A stretch of DNA of 64,000 nucleotides from Daphnia pulex (lineage: Eukaryota; Arthropoda; Branchiopoda; Diplostraca; Daphniidae): the NCBI RefSeq assembly GCF_021134715.1, contig NC_060019.1:12352001-12416000 (forward strand). The letters are read 5' to 3'. Of the stretch, positions 3,001 through 64,000 are shown in pieces. Numbering within the stretch: position 1 is the stretch's first letter; every line of letters starts with the position of its first letter. The notes under the pieces were generated by a model. That model searched no databases and was not told the origin of the DNA. It saw only the letters and a program-made list of their open reading frames with translations. The position numbers and the translations under genes are program-made.

Positions 3001-4990
3001 AACAGGAGCTGCACGCAACGTACGACGACGAAAGAATTCAGAAAAACAGTTTAAAATTATTTATAATTGTTTTTCAATTTTCCACAGCTAATCAAGAATT
3101 AATCGTGCTTGATGTTAAATCGTTAATTTAGACATTTGAATGGGACATTGCATTGGGCTATATTTTGGAGATGGCTGGATTTAAACATAATTTTAGATCC
3201 TATACCACGAATGTTCACTGATCACGCCTGTTCATGGTTATTCATGCTTTAAACGAAATCCAAATGTGGAAGGACGCCTTATTGAAATTCTAATTTCGGC
3301 TCTAAAAATATGACAAATAACCTGCATATGTTTGCACAGGTACAGCGTAAAACTGGTTTCTTTATTTAAATATGTAAACTTATACGGCACATAACCGTCC
3401 ACGTGTATAGCGTATATAGCGTAGCGCCCATTTCAATATATACCGTACACTAGATTAACTATAACACAATAGATAGCTACAAAAACCGCCAGGCCAGTAA
3501 TTGATTTCTCACGCAAATTCCATGTGATATGCCGTCACTTCATTAGCAATCTTGATTTCCACGTGAATCCTCCTAACATATTGAAACTTAAGGATCTTCA
3601 TGCACGTGAAAAAATTTCCGCCCTCCACATTTCTTGCCAAAATACGCACGACTTTAATCACAGAAGCTTATATTACATAAGCTCCCATTCGGTTGTTGTT
3701 GACGTGGCTAATTTAAAAAAAAGACGTATGAATCAGATATATAATAGTAAGCTGGTAACACCTGAATGCTAAGATGCCATGATAAGTGAAGTAAGAGTCG
3801 ACCTTCACCGCTGTTGTCTTTGGGTCCACTAATAGTACGTACGACTGCCAATATAAACTGGCGTATACCAGCCAAAAACTTTCACCCACGACCTTATTTT
3901 AGTCATTTTAGTGTTGGGGGGGGGGGGGGAAGACTCCTAAATAATCTTGACAAACCACTTTACCAACGTTAACAGGCCAACCTTTTTATATTGATAAACG
4001 CTCAACATTCTTCCGTTCAATTCGTTCGAAAAGTGGTTATCCGAAAATTACTGTAACTATATTATTTTGGTCGATGTATAGCGAAGAAATATTCGAATCT
4101 AGATCACTCTTATATTACTAGTTATGGTCGCCCGAGACTCGTCCGAGTTGACAAATAATGTCTTTGACTCGTGCGATTAATTTTAGACTTTCTGTTTTTT
4201 GTTTTTTGTTTTTTTCATGTCAGAGGATTTATTAGAACTGCCAAGTGCCAAGTCCCAACCTCGTGTTTCAACCTCCAAATAAAATACAAATTCATCTACC
4301 TGCTACCGAATCGTTTTAGGATAAAATCAAACTAATTGACAAAGAATGTTGCGCTTATTTCGGGGAATAAAAAAAAATTAGGCGGTTACGTTAGCGCAAT
4401 AAAAAATTCATTGTCATTGGCAACTCTCACGGATCACACCACATTACTTGGCGCTTCATTAACTGTACCAAATCATGTATGAATGCGTAACTGTTGTGTA
4501 ATGACAGACGCGATAATCTGATTATGCCGAGATTATGCTGCAAAATCCATCTTGCGTGTCGTTGATCACGGTTGATCATCAAGCCTTTTCCAAAATCTTC
4601 TTGTTTGGCTAGTTGCTAGTTCAAGACGAGGGAGAGAGGATAGCGTGTATATTATTATACCCCTAATAGCCTGTAAAGTGTAAAATTTACACATACAACC
4701 ATTTATTTTCACTAATTATTATGCAATATTAAAGCAAAGTTTTTTTTTTGTTTCATAACGCAACTTATATAATACGACGACGATCTTTAATATCAGAAAA
4801 TCCCGTCAGAGTTGACGTGGGCTGGAATGTATTTCCATCATTTTTATCACGTTTAATATGGCCATTTTCGTGTACAGATATGGCAATTAATTGTCAACCT
4901 TTCTTACGGCCTTGTATTAACAGGTTTGTGTTGAGCTTATTCTGGGTTTTGTTACTCGACGTGTTTTCATTTTCTACACCTTCACTAGCG
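1..4990. other. Non-coding stretch, no supportable gene
   Basis: I see no convincing coding exon here. Open frames are short, AT-rich and unlike known families. Visible features are homopolymer runs, including G tracts at 2796-2812 and 3916-3929, and many A/T runs. It may hold regulatory sequence or distal untranslated exons of genes to the left. Confidence 0.5.
2796..2812. repeat. Poly-G tract (17 nt)
   Basis: An uninterrupted run of 17 G. Similar long G or C tracts lie at 3916-3929, 52699-52714, about 53205-53221 and about 57353-57368 (C), all outside coding exons. Confidence 0.9.
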
Positions 4991-21800: not shown

Positions 21801-22175
21801 ACTATAGACTATCTATTCTCAGTTTCGGTAAGGAACTAAAAGAAAATAATGTCTATCTCATTGTGTATAATTTTATTTTCTACCAAATATTTTGCGATTA
21901 TGACTCGTTATGTTTGATCTTTTCTGGAGACCAGCCCATTTTTCTATATAAATGTTTATTATAAGAAGTTATCATTAAGAATGCGAAGTACTGTATCCAG
22001 CGATAAGATATTAATTATGTACCACAAATAGTTCTCCGATTGTTGTGATGGCCCATTGGGACTTTACGCGCAACCACAAATGACCGCATTTCTATAGAAC
22101 TTTTCCTCTTATAAAATGGTTCTATCAAGGTATTGACTGAAAATAATCTGTTTTTTTTTTTGTTTTTCTTTGCAG
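18814..22175. other. Intergenic/5' UTR region upstream of P4HA
   Basis: About 3.4 kb with no recognised coding exon. A candidate untranslated exon ending at 20295 (TACAG before GTAAGA) could splice to the P4HA acceptor at 22175. The 135-codon plus-strand frame at 19205-19612 has no family features. Confidence 0.45.
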
Positions 22176-22200
22176 ATTATCATTAAACAGAAGAGAAAAG

Positions 22201-25200
22201 ATGGGTCCAATTTTTCTGATAACAACAACGCTGCTGGTGATATTAGGATTCCGGCCAGTTTCCGGTGACATGTTTTCCGCTTCGGCCGATTTGGCAAACA
22301 CCTTTCGCCTTGAACAAAAAGTAGTCAATGTGTTGGGAGAATTGGTGGCACAGACGGAAGCTAAATTATCAATCATTCGACAGTAAGTCCATCATCACCT
22401 ATCATTATTTACGGACATTTTCGCGTAGAAATACAACCGAATCTGATAGTCAAATTACATCACGCTCGTATTATTATTAGCTATCTGGAGGATTACCAGA
22501 GCGTGGTCGAGGAAAAAGCGGCTAGCGAAGAGGAATTCATCGAACGGGTGGCAGGGAATCCCATTCACGCTTACCGATTGATGAAACGTCTTTACTTCGA
22601 TTGGCAGACGGTAGAAAAAGAAATCAAAGCTGACAACTGGCGAAGTATATTTGCGTTTTACAATAGCACTCATCGTGAAATAAAGAAAACATACTATACT
22701 GAAATATTAAAGCTTATTGCGTTCTTGTGAACAACGACAGACGCTCTGCGACAGTTGGAACGCGTTCGCATGGGGGCGAAATTTCCAAAAGAAGAGGATT
22801 TCTTCGGTGCTGCTCAAGCGTTAGTTCGTCTACAAGACACTTACGAGCTGAACATGACTCAATTGGCTCGAGGAAACCTCTGGGGTAGACAAACGCGTGC
22901 AGGTACTGTATAATGTGTGTTTTCATCTTTCAAAGCACTCGTCGTTGATGCGGCACTATTTTACCGCTATCGCTATATGTATTGTGTTCACTTTCCTCCG
23001 TACAGAACTGACCGCCCAAGATTGCTTGTTCATGGGCAAACACGCCTTCAATGCCGGCGCATACGCACGAGCGGTCGAGTGGTTCGAAGAGTCTTACATT
23101 CTAGCCGGACTGGAAAATAACAAAACCATTAGGCAGGATCAGGTGATGGATTTCATTCAGCACGCCATCAACATGGTATGTATTGATTTCTAGCGCTCGA
23201 TTTTGCATGTATTTTTGATCGCGTCATTTTCATTTGATTTTTAGCACGACGACACCTTGCAGCAAACGAAACAACGGAAACCGATGGCCGTGCTATCGCA
23301 CACCAATTCATTCGAATTACCTCTGAGGGAGAGACCGGCTGTTGTCCAACGGAATGAGATTATTCGCAGTCGGAAGTACAATCTCGGGAAACACATCAGC
23401 GATCAGGACGACGCTTCCAACTTTAACGCATTGTGTAGGGGCGAAAGACTACTGGTATGTTGTACAGCAATATGGGATATAGCCTAATTATTGAATAACA
23501 ATTTAATTATAGTAATTTCGGTAGTTTTGGTATAGGATAACATAAATTAATGAATTCGTTTTTATTTTTTGAAGAATGACAAACTGCTGGCGGAGCTGAA
23601 ATGCTGGTACGATACTCGCCATCAGTTTTATTTTCTCCTGATGCCCATCAAAATCGAACAACATTCATTCGAGCCTGCCATTTACACATTTCACGATGTG
23701 CTGAGTGACGAAGAAATCGAAACAATCAAGGAATTAGCCAAACCACTGGTAACTTTTAATTTGAAAAAAATTATCGCTTTGTGCTAAAAACGTGTATCGC
23801 GGGTGTAAATGCAGTTGGCTCGATCTATGGTGCAAGGGAAACTTGGCGTAGGACACGAAGTTTCAAATGTTAGGACCTCGAAAACGGCTTGGCTTCCAGA
23901 GGGTTTACACCCATTACTAAATCGTCTTTCCCGGCGGATTGGACTAATCACTGGCTTGAAAACCGATCCTATTCGCGACGAAGCAGAACTCCTTCAGGTT
24001 TGAATCAAAATTGAATTGTTATGGTAGCCTACAGAGTTTATCTCATTTTAATTATTTTATTTGTTTTTAATAACTGACGACGACTAGGTTGCTAACTACG
24101 GGATTGGCGGACATTACTCACCTCATCATGACTATCTAATGAAAGACAAAGCGGATTTCGAGGTAATACAAATTTGTTTTATTTTATGTCGGTATAGTGA
24201 TGCGCCAGTAGCAAGTTATTTTTTAAAGTTAATTTTCTCCTCGATAACATGTATTTTCATTTTGATAATAATGTTGCAAGCGACCAATAAGTCTCTAAGT
24301 CACTATAGAACACGCCCAAAAGTTGCTTCTTTTCCAGAGTCCAATGATCACGTACAATTTTATACTGACACGATTCTAAAAATTAACGGTCACCTTCAAA
24401 CGACCGCCTTAACTATGGCAGTGGTAAAAGACGATTGAATACGGTTGGATGCATTTTCTCCGTTTACTACTCTTCGATCGCGAAGTTTCTTATTTGATCA
24501 AAACCATCCAAAGAACTGTGTTCCTCTTACTCTCATCTCAGGATGCCCATTTTTATTTGGAATTTGTGAACTATTTTTATTCGCCAGATAGTAAAATGTG
24601 GTCAATTTTTACGATATCGTTTTATTCAACTAGTCAACCATGAAAGTCAAGCTACAATTTGCCACAGACCAGTATCTATAGCTTCTCACCATATACAAAC
24701 TATTTGTTTTCAGTTCGCTGGCGTTCGAATCATTTTTAGTTTCGTGGTTATAAATTAGACATATAATACTTATACTACTGGCGCATCACACATTTCATGC
24801 CTGCTCAATTTATTTTTCCTATACCTTAAACTGTCGACACTGACTATTACAATTGACATTTGACTGTATACGACCCAATGGACCTAATATACTTTACAGT
24901 TGGAAAAGATGCCTCCTCGCGAACTTGCAATGGGCGACAGAATTGCCACTTACATGTTTTACGTAAGTTAACTCTCGTGATTGCTGAAGAAATATAGCCT
25001 ACAGCATAAATCATGCATAGAACAATTCAATTGGGAAAAAGCCCACTGGTGTAGCCACTGGCACGGAAAGTAGTTAGACGGACAGACCCTTTCTCACGCT
25101 TTTAACACGCTGGCTTTGGAAAAAACCAAATCTTAAATCTAGTTGATTTTCTCGTAGTTTTGCCATGTATATAGCATAGCTAACTCTTAGTCGGTTAAAC

Positions 25201-26306
25201 GGCGGGCATTGTTTGGCTTTTTTCTTAGGCGAAAAAAAAGTACATGCACCATCGAGAGCTCCAAGCTGGAGATCGGATAGCGACATTTATGTTTTACGTG
25301 AGTATATTGCTGTGCTGTTCACTTGATTCCTCGGCGGCCGACTTCCCATGATGATGCCACAGCACGTTTCTCTTTCGCATGTCTATTCTTTGTAGGCGGG
25401 AATTTTTTTTTTACTTGGTGTAATTGCGCAGCCTGCTGTTCCTGATGTTATTTAATCTGTCTGGGCTGGTCTGGTTTTCCAAAATTGAACAGTAGCCATC
25501 GTTTTTCTTGTAATTATTTGAAGGTTGAATTTGTTGGAGCTTATAGCTTATCCTAACAAATAGTTTGCACATGTTTCATTACTATTATGGGAACTTTATC
25601 TCTATACTTTTGGGGGATGTATATATACTTAATTCCGGTGAAAACAACAAAACACAAACAGGGGGGAAAAAACAACACTATCTGTCGAAAAATTGCCCAG
25701 GAAAAAGTTATGGGATTTGCGGTTTTACGTCCATCCAAGACAGTTTAGTCATGCTGAATTATTTTCACCCGCAAAAGAGTCTGCGTGTCTGCCTTTTTTT
25801 TTTCTTTTTTGTGATGCTATAAATTCCCAATTCTTTTTATCTTTTACCGGTTTGTGGCTAAGTCAGTCTGTGTGTAATCAGACGGGAGATGGGTATTGGG
25901 TAAACATTTGGCACCGGTGATAAAACACTGTATTTTATTGGAACGATCATCAATGCCATTACAGCTTAATGATGTGGAGCGCGGCGGGTCGACGGCTTTC
26001 CCGCGGGCTGGCGTCGCGGTCAAGCCGGTGAAAGCGGGAGCCGCATTTTGGTATAACCTGAAGCGCAGCGGGAAACCGGATCCTCTAACTCTTCACGGTG
26101 CATGTCCCGTCTTGCTGGGACATAAATGGGGTGAGTTACCCACCGAACGTCCGTTCATTTTTTCTCGGCTAGTCAATTTGTAGCCTAGTAAATATTCATT
26201 CATATTTAATTCGTCGTATTTAAAATGTAAAACAGTCAGCAACAAATGGATTCGGGAAACTGCTCAGACTTTCAACAGACGCTGCCTACTCGATGCCAAT
26301 CAATAA
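22201..26306 (+). CDS. P4HA: Prolyl 4-hydroxylase subunit alpha (P4HA1/2-like)
   Basis: Coding exons: 22201-22382, 22481-22644, 22741-22902, 23006-23175, 23245-23454, 23575-23748, 23815-23997, 24088-24162, then either 24900-24962 or 25229-25297, then 25965-26130 and 26236-26306, giving 539 or 541 residues (human P4HA1 is 534). The signal peptide ends about residue 22. The N-terminal dimerisation region and the TPR-like peptide-binding domain (AQDCLFMGKHAFNAGAYARA, about 225-290) precede the 2-oxoglutarate/Fe(II) domain. Its ligands are visible: HYSPHHD (His428, Asp430), HGACPVL (His505) and GHKW (Lys515), numbered with the first alternative exon. The enzyme hydroxylates Y-position prolines of collagen in the ER as an alpha2beta2 tetramer with PDI. 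The stop codon lies inside an AATAAA hexamer. A 25-nt untranslated stretch precedes the ATG after the acceptor at 22175. Confidence 0.95.
24900..24962 (+). other. P4HA: P4HA alternative exon, version a
   Basis: 63-nt in-phase exon ending in GDRIATYMFY, flanked by TTTACAG and GTAAGT. It occupies the same place in the reading frame as 25229-25297. It encodes part of the catalytic jelly-roll between the HxD motif and the distal His. Confidence 0.85.
25229..25297 (+). other. P4HA: P4HA alternative exon, version b
   Basis: 69-nt in-phase exon ending in GDRIATFMFY, flanked by TTCTTAG and GTGAGT. It is homologous to the exon at 24900-24962, so the two are probably spliced mutually exclusively. Its first half (AKKKYMHHRELQA) is far more basic than version a. 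Confidence 0.8.
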
Positions 26307-26690
26307 AAACAAGAAAGTCGCCATCAAAAATCGAAATTTTTTTAAAACGATATCATTTTTATACCAATAACGGTTGTGGTGTATGACGTATATGTGTAAC
26401 TGTCTAACAGTTGTGTATTCCTTCAAGTACTCTGTCGTAACGTCATTTCAAATTTTTCTGTACGTATTTTAATACTTCGACATTTCTTTTTCTAAATTTG
26501 GCCCTAGTCAAGAATTTGAGCCTTATTTTCCGTGGTATAAAAAGGCATTTCATTGCTTTACTTGAGCGTTTCTACGATACTTTCGTAATGAAATCTGTTT
26601 ATTGGCAACCAAACACAGACCGTATTTATTATTAACTGTCTGGACTGACGTGGATGATTGCGAATTGTGATTCCCTCCTTTTATATTTTA
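26307..26690. other. Convergent 3' ends of P4HA and the WD-repeat gene
   Basis: About 380 nt between two converging genes, AT-rich, holding both 3' UTRs. No gene seen. Confidence 0.7.
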
Positions 26691-28914
26691 TTATGATTTC
26701 TCCGGATTGTAGTTGTGAGAATAAACATGGATTTTACCAATGTCGTCTCCAACGAGAAGTGCCTGTATTTTATTATAATTTATTATTATTAACGAAATTA
26801 TTTCCCCTTTTTTTAACGAATTCACCTTGGAATGAGCGACGAAACACACAGTCGTGAGTCGTGAAGTTTTGCAAGCTGGGTCCGGCATTCGGCGAGCGCT
26901 TATTAAAAACATGGCTGCCGGGAATATTTTCCACAGCTCGATCGAATCGGGTTTTAAGATGGCCATCAGCTCGGGACAGTCGGGATTACACGTGAAATTG
27001 ATGATGGATCCCTGCTCGATAATATTAAATGTTATTGAATTTGCGCTACAAGATTTTATGAAAAACTCGCCAATGGCTCTGGGAAAAGTGGTGTAACTTG
27101 GCTTTTCTGTCCTGGCAGCAACATTTCCACATAAATCATATTGTCGTTGCCGAGAGTAATGATGTACTCCTTGTCTTCGTAGTCGATTCCTAAAGATAAC
27201 AACAACAACCATGTTTAAGTCAAAAGATTTACGGAAAGAAAGAAAGAAAATTATTCATACGTACTTTCCATATGGACTAACGCTCCGACGTGTCTTTGAG
27301 TCGTCATTAGTGGGACATAATTTTGTAGGAAAGAAAACTATAAAACAAAATAAGAAAAATTTATTTATTTTTAGACTGTAAAAAAAAAAGAAAAACGGCC
27401 TGAAAATACAAATATATTACGTACGGTATGGAGAGAACCATCTTCCGAGCCGATGATGAATCGATCCGGGTCGCTTTTGAGCGGAGCCACGCAACATCGC
27501 GCGGCCGGAGTGGGCAAGCAGTCCGGCTGCGAGAGTAGAGTGAGTTCGATCAATCTCGGCAATTCCAGATGGTAATAAGACGGCTCCAATTCTGCAATAA
27601 CTAAACAACACAAAATCACCATTTTCTTATTGTTAGCAAATGCAATTGCATAGCACAGATAATGTATATAGTCTCGGGTGTTGTATATTATACCTTGAGA
27701 TTCGAGTGCGAGTTCCGCCGTCACAGTCGTCCACATGAGAACTCGCCCGTCACTTCCGCTGCTCAGCACTTTGCAGCCAACCCAGCACAAGTCAAGCACG
27801 CTTCCTTTATGGCCGCTGTCTAGAAGAAAAGGAACCGAAATGGCCGTTATCTTCGCTGGCATTCCATATTAATGGCATTTGGAATTGTACTATATACTTT
27901 GAACTCGATTCTCAGCAATGTGTCCTGACGAGGCCGAGATGCTAATGAAGCGAACCATGCCGCTTTCGTCACCGACTGCTATGAGACGTGGATTGTCGAT
28001 CGAGAATTTCACGGTGGTCGGGTTGGTGCTGGTCGAAATGACGAGCTCCGGATAAGTGACGTTCTGCACGTTCCAACAGGTGATAAAGCCTTTGTGGGTG
28101 TTCAGGTTCTGATACGCTACGGCGAACAGCATCTTCAAAATGTTGCGCAAAAACCAAAGATAAATTATACATACATTTCTCTTGGGTTGATAGCGGTCTG
28201 TGGTATAAATAATATGTACCCGATCCTGTGGATTGCAGGCCACGCAATTCACTTTGGTAAATTGATTGTCATCGCTCCAGATCATTTTCCACTCCAATTT
28301 GAATCTTAATCCATCTTCGACTTCCACTCGCTGTAGAGGATCTCGGGGCCAAATCACGCCGACCATTTCGGCCCAAAGAGGTGCAATTTCGATGGAGGAT
28401 AGAGACCTTCCCAGTGAGGTCAATTTGGAAACTGTCGATTCCATCTTTTCTTCAAAACTCGGCTCTTCTCCTTCTTCTCGCTCTTCTTCTTCCTCTTCTG
28501 TAAAGCGGTAAGAATCTGAAAAATAAAGAAATACAGTTTTATACCTTTAAGGCCGTCGGGTAATCAATTAATCAAAGATGGTACCATACAAGTCCCAGAC
28601 GGTTGCTTGCGCGTCTTGATCCTGATAAATGTCCAATCAAGTGTCCAATAATTCGGTTTTTTAAAGGAGATTTAATTGTTTATGGCAAATATACGTACAT
28701 TCATGATAAAAGGAAATGTTTGTTCCTTTTCCGAGATTTGCAAAGCCGTGATTGTTTGGGTGCTTTTAGCGCAACACTTGACATTTGGAGTCAAGTCTGT
28801 CAATTCTAATTGATTTTCTTTTGAAATTTCGACTGACTCTGTAATGAAACAATCGCTGTCTATTTTCAATAACCAAATTGTGGGACTTTCGACGAGCTTC
28901 ACTTTAACACTCAT
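26691..28914 (-). CDS. Dynein intermediate chain-like WD-repeat protein
   Basis: Ten exons: 28914-28699, 28621-28585, 28515-28220, 28132-27898, 27819-27694, 27600-27425, 27337-27265, 27189-27098, 27011-26826 and 26762-26691, all in phase, giving about 502 residues. The N-terminal part has KSTQT and ATVWDLYDSYRF followed by an acidic run (TEEEEEEREEGEE). WD40 blades follow: MLFAVAYQNLNTHKGFITCW, RLIAVGDESGMVRF, SGHKGSVLDLCW with SSGSDGRVLMW, RFIIGSEDGSLHT, EYIITLGNDNMIYVEM and a last blade ALLVGDDIGKIHVY. The NPTxPE-type strand and HxGxV blade are characteristic of dynein intermediate chains. I cannot decide between axonemal (DNAI1/DNAI4-like) and dynein-2 (WDR34-like) types. It starts about 500 bp from the divergent MIER gene, so they may share a promoter region. 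Confidence 0.8.
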
Positions 28915-60694: not shown

Positions 60695-63600
60695 TTAAAG
60701 TCTTTTGATAGAACATAGGAATTTAACAAGCGAAGACCAAAGAATTTTGGATTGGGAGAAAGCGTCTAATGGGACTGGCCACGACAGCTTTAACTCAACC
60801 GCAGAATTAATAAGGCTGACTCTGTGTACGGCGTGGCTGGTACAGACAAACAAAATATGAGCCACATCTTCCACTTCCCCTGAAAGGCAGGGACAGAGCG
60901 GTGACGGAGACTTTTTTATTTTAAAGAGAAAGTTGTTTAAGCCGCAGTGGCCCGAGAGAAAGCTGCAGAGAAAGAAGGGTAATTTAGAGGAGGACAAAAT
61001 CGAGGCGGATTCCACTGAGGGAAAGAACAAGCGGGTCTGGGCACCAGTATTTGCATTTTGCCAGGCTTCATTCCAAAGGGAAAGCATTTCTGACCGCAAC
61101 AGTCTTTTCCTGTGCAGACCAAGGGGTATGCCTGCTGGAGCTTCAGACGCCAGAATTTTGGCAGAGATAACGCCAGCAACTTGTAACGACGAGGGTGGCA
61201 GAAGCGCAGCTAGGGTAGAGATGGATCTCTTTAGCACCGTTTCGATTATTTTGAGGTGCAGAGGGAGGGTGTTGGCGAGAATGAGGGCCGCGTCAGTAGA
61301 CGTGGATTTGAACAGACGGCCAATTGTCAGCGCAAAAGGGCGTTGGGCGGATTTCAGGGCTGCAATTACACGCTTCCTGCGGATGGCCGAGGCCCAAACA
61401 GAGCAGTTGTATAGTATAGTGGGAATCACGGTTGTTTTATAAAGAAGAGAAATTGCATTACGCGAGAGGCCCCACGAAAGCCGACAGCATTTTAGAATAA
61501 GAAACAAAAGTTTTTTTACCGCAGCGCATTTGTTAGATATGTGGGTGTTCCAGCTGAGTTTGTCATCGATGGTTAGACCAAGGTACAGGCATGAGTGGGA
61601 ACGAGCAACACATACGTTGTCAACCTTCAAGGGCAGAGACGGCATGGTTCGTTTCGAGGAGAAGACCATGAAGACGGATTTTAAACCGTTGAAAGTAAGT
61701 TTGACCGAACGACCCCATGCTACAGAGGAATCGCACATTGCTTGAAGGTTGGCAAAAGCAGTATCATAGTTTTTGTCCATTGCACAGAGAACAATGTCAT
61801 CTGCATACGCCAAAATAAGGAAGGGGAAGGGGAAACTAAGGCTTAGCAGTTCCTCTATAAGAATGTTCCAAAGAAACGGCGAGAGGGCACTGCCTTGAGG
61901 ACAACCGAGCTCAGTGTTGGCAGTGAAGGTGTCCGAAGCGTTTTTCAAAATGCTTGAGCGAGAGCTGAGGAAGTCACCCAGAATTTTTACTAAAAACTGG
62001 GGGCAGCCTTTTTTGATCAGGCTGTTCAGAATGGCTGGGTGCCAGGTCGCGTCAAAAGCTGACTTAATGTCTAAAAAAGCACAACAAGTGACCATCTTCT
62101 TTTTTTTGTTGCCTTCGATTAACTTAATAAGAGAGAGGGAGGCCGTTTCTGTGGATAAACCTGCCCTGAAACCATGCTGACTGGGGCTGAACCAAGAGTG
62201 CGTAGCAGCCAAAGCTTTGAGTTTAGCAAGAATGATTTTCTCAAACAGTTTAGAGAGGCTGTTGATAATACTGATTGGTCTGAAACAGTTTGGGTGAAGG
62301 TAATTCGGCTTATTGTTTTTTTTAAGGATGACGATAGAGGCGGTTTTCCAGCAATTAGGAAAGTAGCCGAGGTTAAAGCAAACCGAGAAGAGGGCCGCTA
62401 AATGGGATTTTATTAAATCGAAGGAATGGCTTAGCCAGATGGACGAGATTCCGTCCGAGCCGGCGGACTTAGAGAGGCGTACACTATCGAAGGCCTGCTT
62501 AACTTCGGAAGGGAGGACCAGAAATTCCGTAGAGGAGAGAGGTGCTTCGCAGAAGGTAGTTGAGGAGAGCAGAGCGGATTTGTGAAATGAGTCATCTGGA
62601 GGGTTAGTCGGGAAGAAGTGCGAGCTGAAGGCAGAAAGGATGTCCTTTGGGTCGGTAATGGAAACTCCATCAATTAGTAGTTCTGAAGGATGATTGTTTA
62701 CTGGGGTGGATAACGTCAACTTTTTTAACTCTCCAAAAATATCTCCGTTTAGGTTATTGGAGCAGAAGGATTTCCAGCTTTCTTTTTTACCTGCTCTTAG
62801 GGTCCTTTGGTATTCGGCTTTGAGGTGACTGTACGCGTCTCTATTCCCTTGAGAGGGAGACTCACGGCTGAGTTTGTAGGCGACTTTCAGCTTTTTACGC
62901 AGAGACCACATCATATCGGACCACCAGGGCATCCTAGCAGGAGCTCGGGAGGGATGAAATGGGAGTTTACTTTTCAGAGCAGCCGACTTGATAGAGTCAG
63001 TCAAATTTGCAATGAATGCTTCGATATCCTGAGGAGAAGTAAACGTCTGTACAGTACTGGGGCTGGCCATGGAACCGAGGGAGGCTTCAAGGTTTGAGAG
63101 AAAAAGAGGCATGTTGCAGTTGGGAGGAGACGGAAGTCGGAACTCAGTACGTGCAGGCAGGGCAACACGACAACCAAAGGGCACACGGAAAGAGATAAAA
63201 GGGTGGTCCGAAAGAGACGGATAGGCCGGGTACAGCCAACCATTGAGGGAGACGGAGTCCCCAGCCAGGGTGACGTCAACAAAGGACGTGTTGGACGGCT
63301 TGTGTGAGAGTAGTTTGAGATTCACATTTGAAACAGAGAGAGCGTTATTTAGGAAGCAGAGCTCTAGGTCAACGCCGATGTGGTCAGTGCGAACGCTGTT
63401 CCAGGCCTGACTTTTGGCGTTGCAATCAATGCCGAAAAAGGCGTGTTTTTTTACGGCCGGCGGAATAGAATTAAAAATTGACTCGAGGTGTAGAGGAATC
63501 GATACCAGAGATGGTCTGCAGTAAATAGAAAAGCAGAACAGATCGTTGGACAGCTTGATGCCACAACAATTATTTGATAGACCAAAAATGCAGAGCGAAG

Positions 63601-63877
63601 CGTTCAAAGAACTTTTGGCAATAATCAGGGCGCCGAAAGCATGCTCGGAAGATAGATTGTGGAAAGAAGAGTAGCCAAGAGGAACGAATTTAGGCTCAAA
63701 CGAAGAAGACAGGGGGGACATAGCTGCATACGGCTCTTGAATTAAAATTACATCAATGTCAAGATCGAGTATCAATTGAGAGAGATTAAGCGCAGCGCAG
63801 CGCGAGTGCCTTAGATTGATCTGAAAGCACTTGAGTGGGGCAGACGCTTTACTGATGTTGTGATGGGCGACTGGCAT
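60695..63877 (-). CDS. Retrotransposon ORF2: AP-like endonuclease and reverse transcriptase
   Basis: 1,060 residues from ATG 63877. The open frame extends 34 codons further upstream to 63979, but those overlap ORF1. The N-terminal endonuclease (about 15-230) opens with FQINLRHSRCAALNL and contains LIQEPYA and FVDVTLAGD. The reverse transcriptase follows (about 480-760): FRPISIINSLSKLFEKI, HGFRAGLSTETA, FLDIKSAFD, GCPQGSALSPFLWNIL and the catalytic YADD (61807-61796, residue about 691). A C-terminal Cys-His motif (CPCLSGEVEDVAHILFVC) matches the zinc knuckle found in R1/Jockey-type elements. It nicks target DNA and copies the element RNA onto it. The clade is judged from motif style (QINL, GCPQGS), so R1, Jockey or a neighbour remain possible. 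No internal stop or frameshift. Confidence 0.93.
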   Translation of the reverse strand: MPVAHHNISKASAPLKCFQINLRHSRCAALNLSQLILDLDIDVILIQEPYAAMSPLSSSFEPKFVPLGYSSFHNLSSEHAFGALIIAKSSLNASLCIFGLSNNCCGIKLSNDLFCFSIYCRPSLVSIPLHLESIFNSIPPAVKKHAFFGIDCNAKSQAWNSVRTDHIGVDLELCFLNNALSVSNVNLKLLSHKPSNTSFVDVTLAGDSVSLNGWLYPAYPSLSDHPFISFRVPFGCRVALPARTEFRLPSPPNCNMPLFLSNLEASLGSMASPSTVQTFTSPQDIEAFIANLTDSIKSAALKSKLPFHPSRAPARMPWWSDMMWSLRKKLKVAYKLSRESPSQGNRDAYSHLKAEYQRTLRAGKKESWKSFCSNNLNGDIFGELKKLTLSTPVNNHPSELLIDGVSITDPKDILSAFSSHFFPTNPPDDSFHKSALLSSTTFCEAPLSSTEFLVLPSEVKQAFDSVRLSKSAGSDGISSIWLSHSFDLIKSHLAALFSVCFNLGYFPNCWKTASIVILKKNNKPNYLHPNCFRPISIINSLSKLFEKIILAKLKALAATHSWFSPSQHGFRAGLSTETASLSLIKLIEGNKKKKMVTCCAFLDIKSAFDATWHPAILNSLIKKGCPQFLVKILGDFLSSRSSILKNASDTFTANTELGCPQGSALSPFLWNILIEELLSLSFPFPFLILAYADDIVLCAMDKNYDTAFANLQAMCDSSVAWGRSVKLTFNGLKSVFMVFSSKRTMPSLPLKVDNVCVARSHSCLYLGLTIDDKLSWNTHISNKCAAVKKLLFLILKCCRLSWGLSRNAISLLYKTTVIPTILYNCSVWASAIRRKRVIAALKSAQRPFALTIGRLFKSTSTDAALILANTLPLHLKIIETVLKRSISTLAALLPPSSLQVAGVISAKILASEAPAGIPLGLHRKRLLRSEMLSLWNEAWQNANTGAQTRLFFPSVESASILSSSKLPFFLCSFLSGHCGLNNFLFKIKKSPSPLCPCLSGEVEDVAHILFVCTSHAVHRVSLINSAVELKLSWPVPLDAFSQSKILWSSLVKFLCSIKRL

Positions 63878-63879
63878 AT

Positions 63880-64000
63880 TCACTCGGTGGAAATGTAGTC
63901 GAGGTATTGAGCTACGGCTTTGGCCAGAGCAGGACAAGCGATAGATCCAACTTGGTGGTTTTGCTGACAATTCGCACATTTGAAGTCTTTAGGGAATGAT
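63880..64000 (-). CDS. Retrotransposon ORF1 (gag-like), 3' end only
   Basis: The last 39 or so codons of a minus-strand frame entering from the right edge and stopping at 63882-63880. It contains CANCQQNHQVGSIACP, a C-x2-C-x3-H-x6-C knuckle typical of the last zinc knuckle of R1/Jockey ORF1 nucleic-acid-binding proteins. The ORF2 ATG follows the stop after only two bases, which suggests termination-reinitiation translation of ORF2. The rest of ORF1 is outside the window. Confidence 0.75.
   Translation of the reverse strand, partial: SFPKDFKCANCQQNHQVGSIACPALAKAVAQYLDYISTE

Follow-up and report, generated by a model that had tools for sequence, protein, structure and literature searches.

The window, a stretch of 64,000 nucleotides of Daphnia pulex DNA (contig NC_060019.1, positions 12,352,001 to 12,416,000 of the forward strand), contains a gene for the alpha subunit of prolyl 4-hydroxylase (P4HA), a class of enzymes that, in alpha2beta2 tetramers with PDI, hydroxylate the -X-Pro-Gly- sites of collagen. 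The gene has 11 coding exons per transcript and one alternative exon. Joining the exons yields isoform A of 539 amino acids or isoform B of 541 amino acids, depending on which of two neighboring exons is taken; the frame is open in all four combinations, including the one with both exons (562 amino acids) and the one with neither (518 amino acids). The Pfam domains P4Ha_N (111.6 bits), TPR_P4H (27.7 bits, with a cut-off of 27), and 2OG-FeII_Oxy_3 (50.1/50.2 bits) were all detected above their cut-offs in both isoforms, and the window motifs HHD, TLHGACP, and GHKW line up with the motif residues of human P4HA2 (7zsc alignment). The roles of the His-X-Asp...His iron ligands and of the distal Lys for 2-oxoglutarate are described in PMC9676403. 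By its domains and motifs, the window gene is a complete P4HA with predicted collagen -X-Pro-Gly- hydroxylation. Elsewhere in the window, a 1094-aa open frame with Exo_endo_phos_2 and RVT_1 domains (60695-63976, minus strand) marks a non-LTR retrotransposon-like element. The parts of the P4HA gene considered here, in window coordinates, are as follows:

22201-26306, plus strand: P4HA gene, coding region from ATG to TAA (stop TAA at 26304-26306), defined by exon joins and Pfam domains
23815-23997: hairpin exon of the gene, single copy
24088-24162, plus strand: constitutive exon with the HxD iron-binding motif (HHD), ending ...YLMKDKADFE, phase 0
24163-24899, plus strand: intron before exon A, 737 nt
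24900-24962, plus strand: alternative exon A, 63 nt, 21 aa, LEKMPPRELAMGDRIATYMFY, betaII-betaIII loop version A and strand betaIII
24963-25228, plus strand: intron between A and B, 266 nt
25229-25297, plus strand: alternative exon B, 69 nt, 23 aa, AKKKYMHHRELQAGDRIATFMFY, betaII-betaIII loop version B and strand betaIII
25298-25964, plus strand: intron after exon B, 667 nt
25965-26130, plus strand: constitutive exon with the distal His and Lys, starting LNDVERGG

The earlier note had placed exons A and B at these coordinates, in phase 0 with good splice sites, as two candidates for the same slot between the HxD motif and the distal His with nearly the same ends. The exon joins and AG/GT borders bear this out: exon A has the acceptor ...ctttacag and the donor TAC/gtaagt, exon B has the acceptor ...tttcttag and the donor TAC/gtgagt, both are phase 0-0, their ends read GDRIATYMFY and GDRIATFMFY, and the frame is open either way. 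The exons are neighboring, homologous, and internal, with the same phases and similar length. The acceptor of B has 16 pyrimidines in 21 positions (equal to two other exons) and that of A has 11 in 21; constitutive exons range from 9 to 16. Aligned at their right ends, A and B have identical residues at 13 of 21 positions and identical bases at 36 of 63 (27 differ), with a local DNA alignment score of 29 vs. a maximum of 26 among 500 mononucleotide shuffles. Synonymously different codons are used for 9 of the 11 shared residues that have degenerate codons. When the same number of changes was placed at random, at least 13 residues were kept in none of 20,000 simulations from A and none of 20,000 from B, and a stop codon was present in 55% and 60% of those runs. 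The 150-nt intron flanks of A and B show no similarity (P 0.98 upstream, 0.24 downstream). Dissimilar flanks and saturated synonymous change with residues kept point to an old duplication with both copies constrained; in this one genome, A and B both look held to their protein sequence by selection. An ungapped profile scan of 22100-26400 on both strands revealed no third copy of the exon (B scored 115, A 111, and the next best place 27), although the profile was built from A, B, and the exon of a paralog on contig 7, so the scores of A and B are not independent. An exact 20-mer of exon B had a single match, in an archaeal bin, among 84,980 prokaryote genomes, as expected by chance.

Two human genes of this class have comparable exon pairs: P4HA2 has exons 12a/12b (60/66 nt, borders after FSR), and P4HA1 has exons 9/10, also called 9a/9b or 10a/10b. 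The window slot aligns between the HxD motif and strand betaIII of human P4HA2 CAT (7zsc), that is, with the betaII-betaIII loop, and across the slot isoforms A and B match this sequence with 128.8 bits each. The human residues aligned to the slot, Arg435-Gly448, are named the substrate-binding loop, with the limits given in PMC9676403. According to the same source, splice variants of P4HA2 (C-P4H-II) alter the betaII-betaIII substrate-binding loop, and those of P4HA1 (C-P4H-I) alter the hairpin loop. The P4HA1 exons 9/10, which the earlier note had put forward as the human counterpart, resemble A and B in being tandem homologous exons with exclusive use (PMC11868403, PMC5224494) but differ in encoding the hairpin loop rather than the betaII-betaIII loop (PMC9676403). 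A switch of the P4HA1 type was therefore dismissed for the window slot, which lies outside the hairpin loop and matches P4HA2. The hairpin exon itself is not duplicated: it has 10 matches in 10 gene copies, one in each. Since the slot is the betaII-betaIII loop and the P4HA1 variants change the hairpin loop, the human counterpart of the window pair is, judged by alignment, the pair of P4HA2 splice variants (exons 12a/12b), which form a splice switch at this loop.

The loop, counted from the residue after the HxD Asp up to the conserved Gly, is 22 residues long in A, 24 in B, and 22 in the contig-7 paralog; the same span has 16 residues in human P4HA2 and in another exon pair, on contig 9. The residues by which the window loop exceeds that of human P4HA2 come from the end of the constitutive HxD exon. 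Net charge over this span is -1 in A and +2 with two His in B, and within the slot only it is 0 vs. +3 plus two His, in agreement with the difference in charge that had been noted before. The position, length, and charge of the loop suggest that the A and B isoforms may differ in substrate preference. For P4HA1, one source describes two isoforms that differ in promoting invasion (PMC11868403), and another describes both transcripts as similarly expressed and probably alike in function (PMC12525012).

We searched the genome (133.19 Mb in 13 contigs) for paralogs and found 16 P4HA places, 15 of which, including the window, were examined; the one left out is a weak last-exon piece (C2:11997683-11997742, E 0.054; here and below, C2 stands for contig 2 and so on). 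Intact slot pairs are present in two of the 15 places, the window and C9:7.818 Mb. The latter pair is located as follows:

C9:7818974-7818909 and 7818812-7818747, minus strand: slot exons of the contig-9 gene, PSEVKAFQGLGTGNRIATWLMY and KEEVNAFKDLGWGNRVATWLFY, within C9:7816000-7823000

Like A and B, these exons form an intact tandem phase-0 pair in the same slot, with 66 nt each and GT/AG borders. The contig-9 gene differs from the window gene in that the 5' border of its pair falls directly after HFDYAR, in that it is nearer to human P4HA2 (184.1 bits, gap-free, vs. 128.8 for the window gene), and in that pairing between its introns is not significant (P 0.095, 0.565, and 0.65; 200 shuffles each).

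The closest paralog of the window gene, at C7:1.781 Mb, has a single slot exon, MEKLSPRDKAMGDRIATFMFY, which shares 15 of 21 residues with A and 11 of 21 with B. The introns that match the 737- and 667-nt introns of the window gene are 76 and 74 nt long in this paralog, with no room for a second exon. This paralog has near-copies at C8:1.805 and C2:11.992 Mb, the latter with in-frame stops or indels. A single slot exon was also found in the contig-9 genes at 7.841, 7.842, 7.850, and 7.543 Mb and at C5:3.400 Mb. With one slot exon each in the contig-7 paralog and in five contig-9 genes, one copy per protein appears to be the normal state. At C2:1.918 and C12:5.433 Mb, the HxD motif and the slot lie within one exon; at C9:6.265 Mb, a pattern search found no slot. 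The gene at C9:7.835 Mb retains a frame-broken remnant (about 3149-3230 of the region analyzed there), whose alignment score is 74 against the first exon of the contig-9 pair and 31 against the second; thus, loss of an exon after duplication is directly visible in this gene, the only single-exon gene scanned for remnants. A truncated copy of the window gene at C3:6.366 Mb ends in the intron before A. This copy (about 3913-4642 of the region analyzed there) is ~6 Mb from the window gene and looks like a rearranged dispersed copy; upstream of it, a short piece was recognized by eye that resembles window 28105-28150, from the neighboring gene on the other strand.

We propose, with a probability of about 0.8, that A and B are tandem-duplicated, mutually exclusive exons at one P4HA slot. 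Several lines of evidence speak for this reading, in which the exclusive use is inferred: the exon borders and phases and the frame, which is open in either isoform; the synonymous saturation with residues kept; the equal fit of both isoforms to P4HA2, whose variants, as described in PMC9676403, change the same loop; the single-exon paralogs and the second gene with a pair in the slot; and the long introns around A and B (266-737 nt, the other eight introns of the gene being 66-120 nt). Each exon would supply the outer betaII-betaIII substrate-binding loop together with strand betaIII, and the gene would thereby encode two enzymes that share the iron and 2-oxoglutarate site but differ in the lid over the substrate tunnel. 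The choice would be controlled by intron elements, possibly by a docking stem through which exon A would be placed close to the upstream donor.

On the other side, three observations speak against this proposal: both exons are multiples of three, so transcripts with both or neither would escape frameshift decay; the A-B intron has enough length for splicing, so exclusion would call for an active mechanism; and the contig-7 paralog manages without B. If both exons were spliced nonexclusively, some transcripts would include both or skip both; the phase 0-0 borders would keep every combination in frame, and the intron between A and B is of spliceable length. However, two serial copies of strand betaIII misfit the double-stranded beta-helix, a structural argument, and the single-exon paralogs carry one copy, which makes nonexclusive use improbable. 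A reading in which only A works and B is decaying or unused would agree with the A-like exon of the closest paralog (15 shared residues vs. 11). Yet saturated synonymous change has left B with its frame, GDRIATFMFY, and both splice sites intact, its acceptor is among the most pyrimidine-rich of the gene, and real decay, as seen at C9:7.835 Mb, takes the form of frame-breaking indels. We rejected this option on the codon evidence and consider it very improbable.

The earlier note had described the resemblance to the human pair, should the positions match, as either very old or convergent. Within the genome, our trees of 12 slot exons (leaving out the degenerate copy at C2:11.992 Mb and the genes at C2:1.918 Mb and on C12) split A, B, and the C7 and C8 exons from the contig-9 and C5 exons, with a support of 70 for codons and 99 for protein. 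A, B, and the contig-7 exon have GDRIAT.MFY in common, and the contig-9 exons mostly have GNR(I/V)ATW..Y. Because of this split, the window pair probably arose separately from the contig-9 pair, as judged from exons of ~21 codons in one genome. A joins the C7 exon with a support of 63 and 28 only; thus, the A/B duplication may, on this weak grouping, predate the split of the window and C7 genes, with B lost in C7. In other families, human and fly orthologs are documented to have duplicated exons convergently (PMC9741552).

A single ancestral pair would tell a different story: it would predate the split of the P4HA genes, and be kept in the window gene, the contig-9 gene, and vertebrate P4HA2, while the contig-7 paralog and most contig-9 genes would each be left with a single member. 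The pairs in the window and contig-9 genes do occupy the same slot with the same phase-0 borders relative to the G(D/N)R motif, and the dead first exon at C9:7.835 Mb shows that loss of a member occurs. One old pair predicts, however, that A and B each group with a different contig-9 copy, and neither tree has this form; instead, the exons of the GDRIAT.MFY type fall together, apart from the contig-9 exons, with the support given above. Exon conversion within genes could mask an old pair, and exons this short give weak trees. We regard a single ancestral pair as possible but rather unlikely, and separate origin in the same slot of two genes as the better reading. On the question raised in the earlier note, the tree split favors a duplication separate from the contig-9 pair, in a comparison of short exons from this genome only.

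Exclusion by crowding was considered and rejected: the A-B intron has 266 nt, and constitutive introns go down to 66 nt. Since this intron is spliceable, crowding cannot explain exclusion, and an active mechanism would be needed. The following elements in the introns are candidates:

24197-24211, plus strand: left arm of a perfect 15-bp inverted repeat, candidate docking site, 34 nt downstream of the HxD exon
24775-24789, plus strand: right arm of the repeat, candidate selector for A, 110 nt before exon A
25044-25059, plus strand: weak candidate selector for B, imperfect pairing with the docking site (duplex -16.9 kcal/mol)

The two arms of the repeat, separated by 563 nt, are perfect complements over 15 bp. 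Shuffling the whole region gave a perfect repeat of this length in 5 of 2000 cases (P about 0.0025), shuffling the intron gave one in 0 of 2000, and the duplex of the docking site with the A selector reaches -30.3 kcal/mol (0 of 1000 shuffles). With the candidate B selector, the docking site gives P 0.057 vs. 1000 shuffles (0.10 for the longer arm), and with the intron after B nothing notable (P 0.684 and 0.843). The 15-bp stem is therefore a candidate docking element that would bring the HxD donor near exon A; a B selector at 25044-25059 is suggestive. The arrangement is reminiscent of exon 6 of insect Dscam1, where, as described in PMC8042237, a docking site follows the constitutive exon and its complement precedes the variable exon. 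The window differs from the Dscam1 docking site-selector system in its single strong pairing, with A, and its weak partner for B, so that one half of such a layout has support.

We searched for comparable repeats elsewhere. Among 171 half-overlapping 737-nt pieces of the window, there was one longer perfect repeat (16 bp, 45649/45701) and one 14-bp repeat with a distant partner (31831/32476), which is nearly all A/T. The 16-bp repeat (45649-45664/45701-45716) has G+C-rich arms and a 36-nt loop and forms a short hairpin. Within the window, no third match to a repeat arm was found with up to 2 mismatches. The idea that the two arms mark the termini of a mobile element is unsupported: in a genome search that skipped very common words, the 737-nt intron occurs elsewhere only as an 83-nt left piece (C3:6366561-6366642, 93%), with the left arm and without the right one. 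Within 24163-25964, 11 inverted-repeat pairs were listed; one of them, with 19-nt arms of 89% complementarity (24690-24708/25555-25573), would enclose both A and B.

Taken one step further, the exon for the betaII-betaIII lid could be a recurrent target of tandem duplication, hit at least two separate times in this genome and again in vertebrate P4HA2. Each event would have produced exclusive lids while the active site stayed the same, and the window gene would make its choice by a long-range RNA stem docking A to the upstream donor. This broader proposal is speculative, and as a whole we doubt it more than we believe it.

A literature search of titles and abstract beginnings revealed no exclusive P4HA exons in an invertebrate, and none of the words "P4HA," "prolyl," and "hydroxylase" occurs in the main texts of PMC5740500, PMC9741552, and PMC3228551. 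The kind of switch is already known from human P4HA2, and the window pair is very likely another instance of it. What goes a little beyond the routine is the second, probably separate pair at the same slot, the dead remnant, and the candidate RNA stem. If confirmed, the pair would mean that exclusive-exon control of the substrate lid, known from vertebrate P4HA2, also operates in a large arthropod P4HA family. Two genes with a pair, one with a dead copy, and several with a single exon can be compared within this one genome, which would make two questions testable: whether selection for substrate choice lies behind the repeated duplication at one loop and whether the choice is enforced by an RNA stem.
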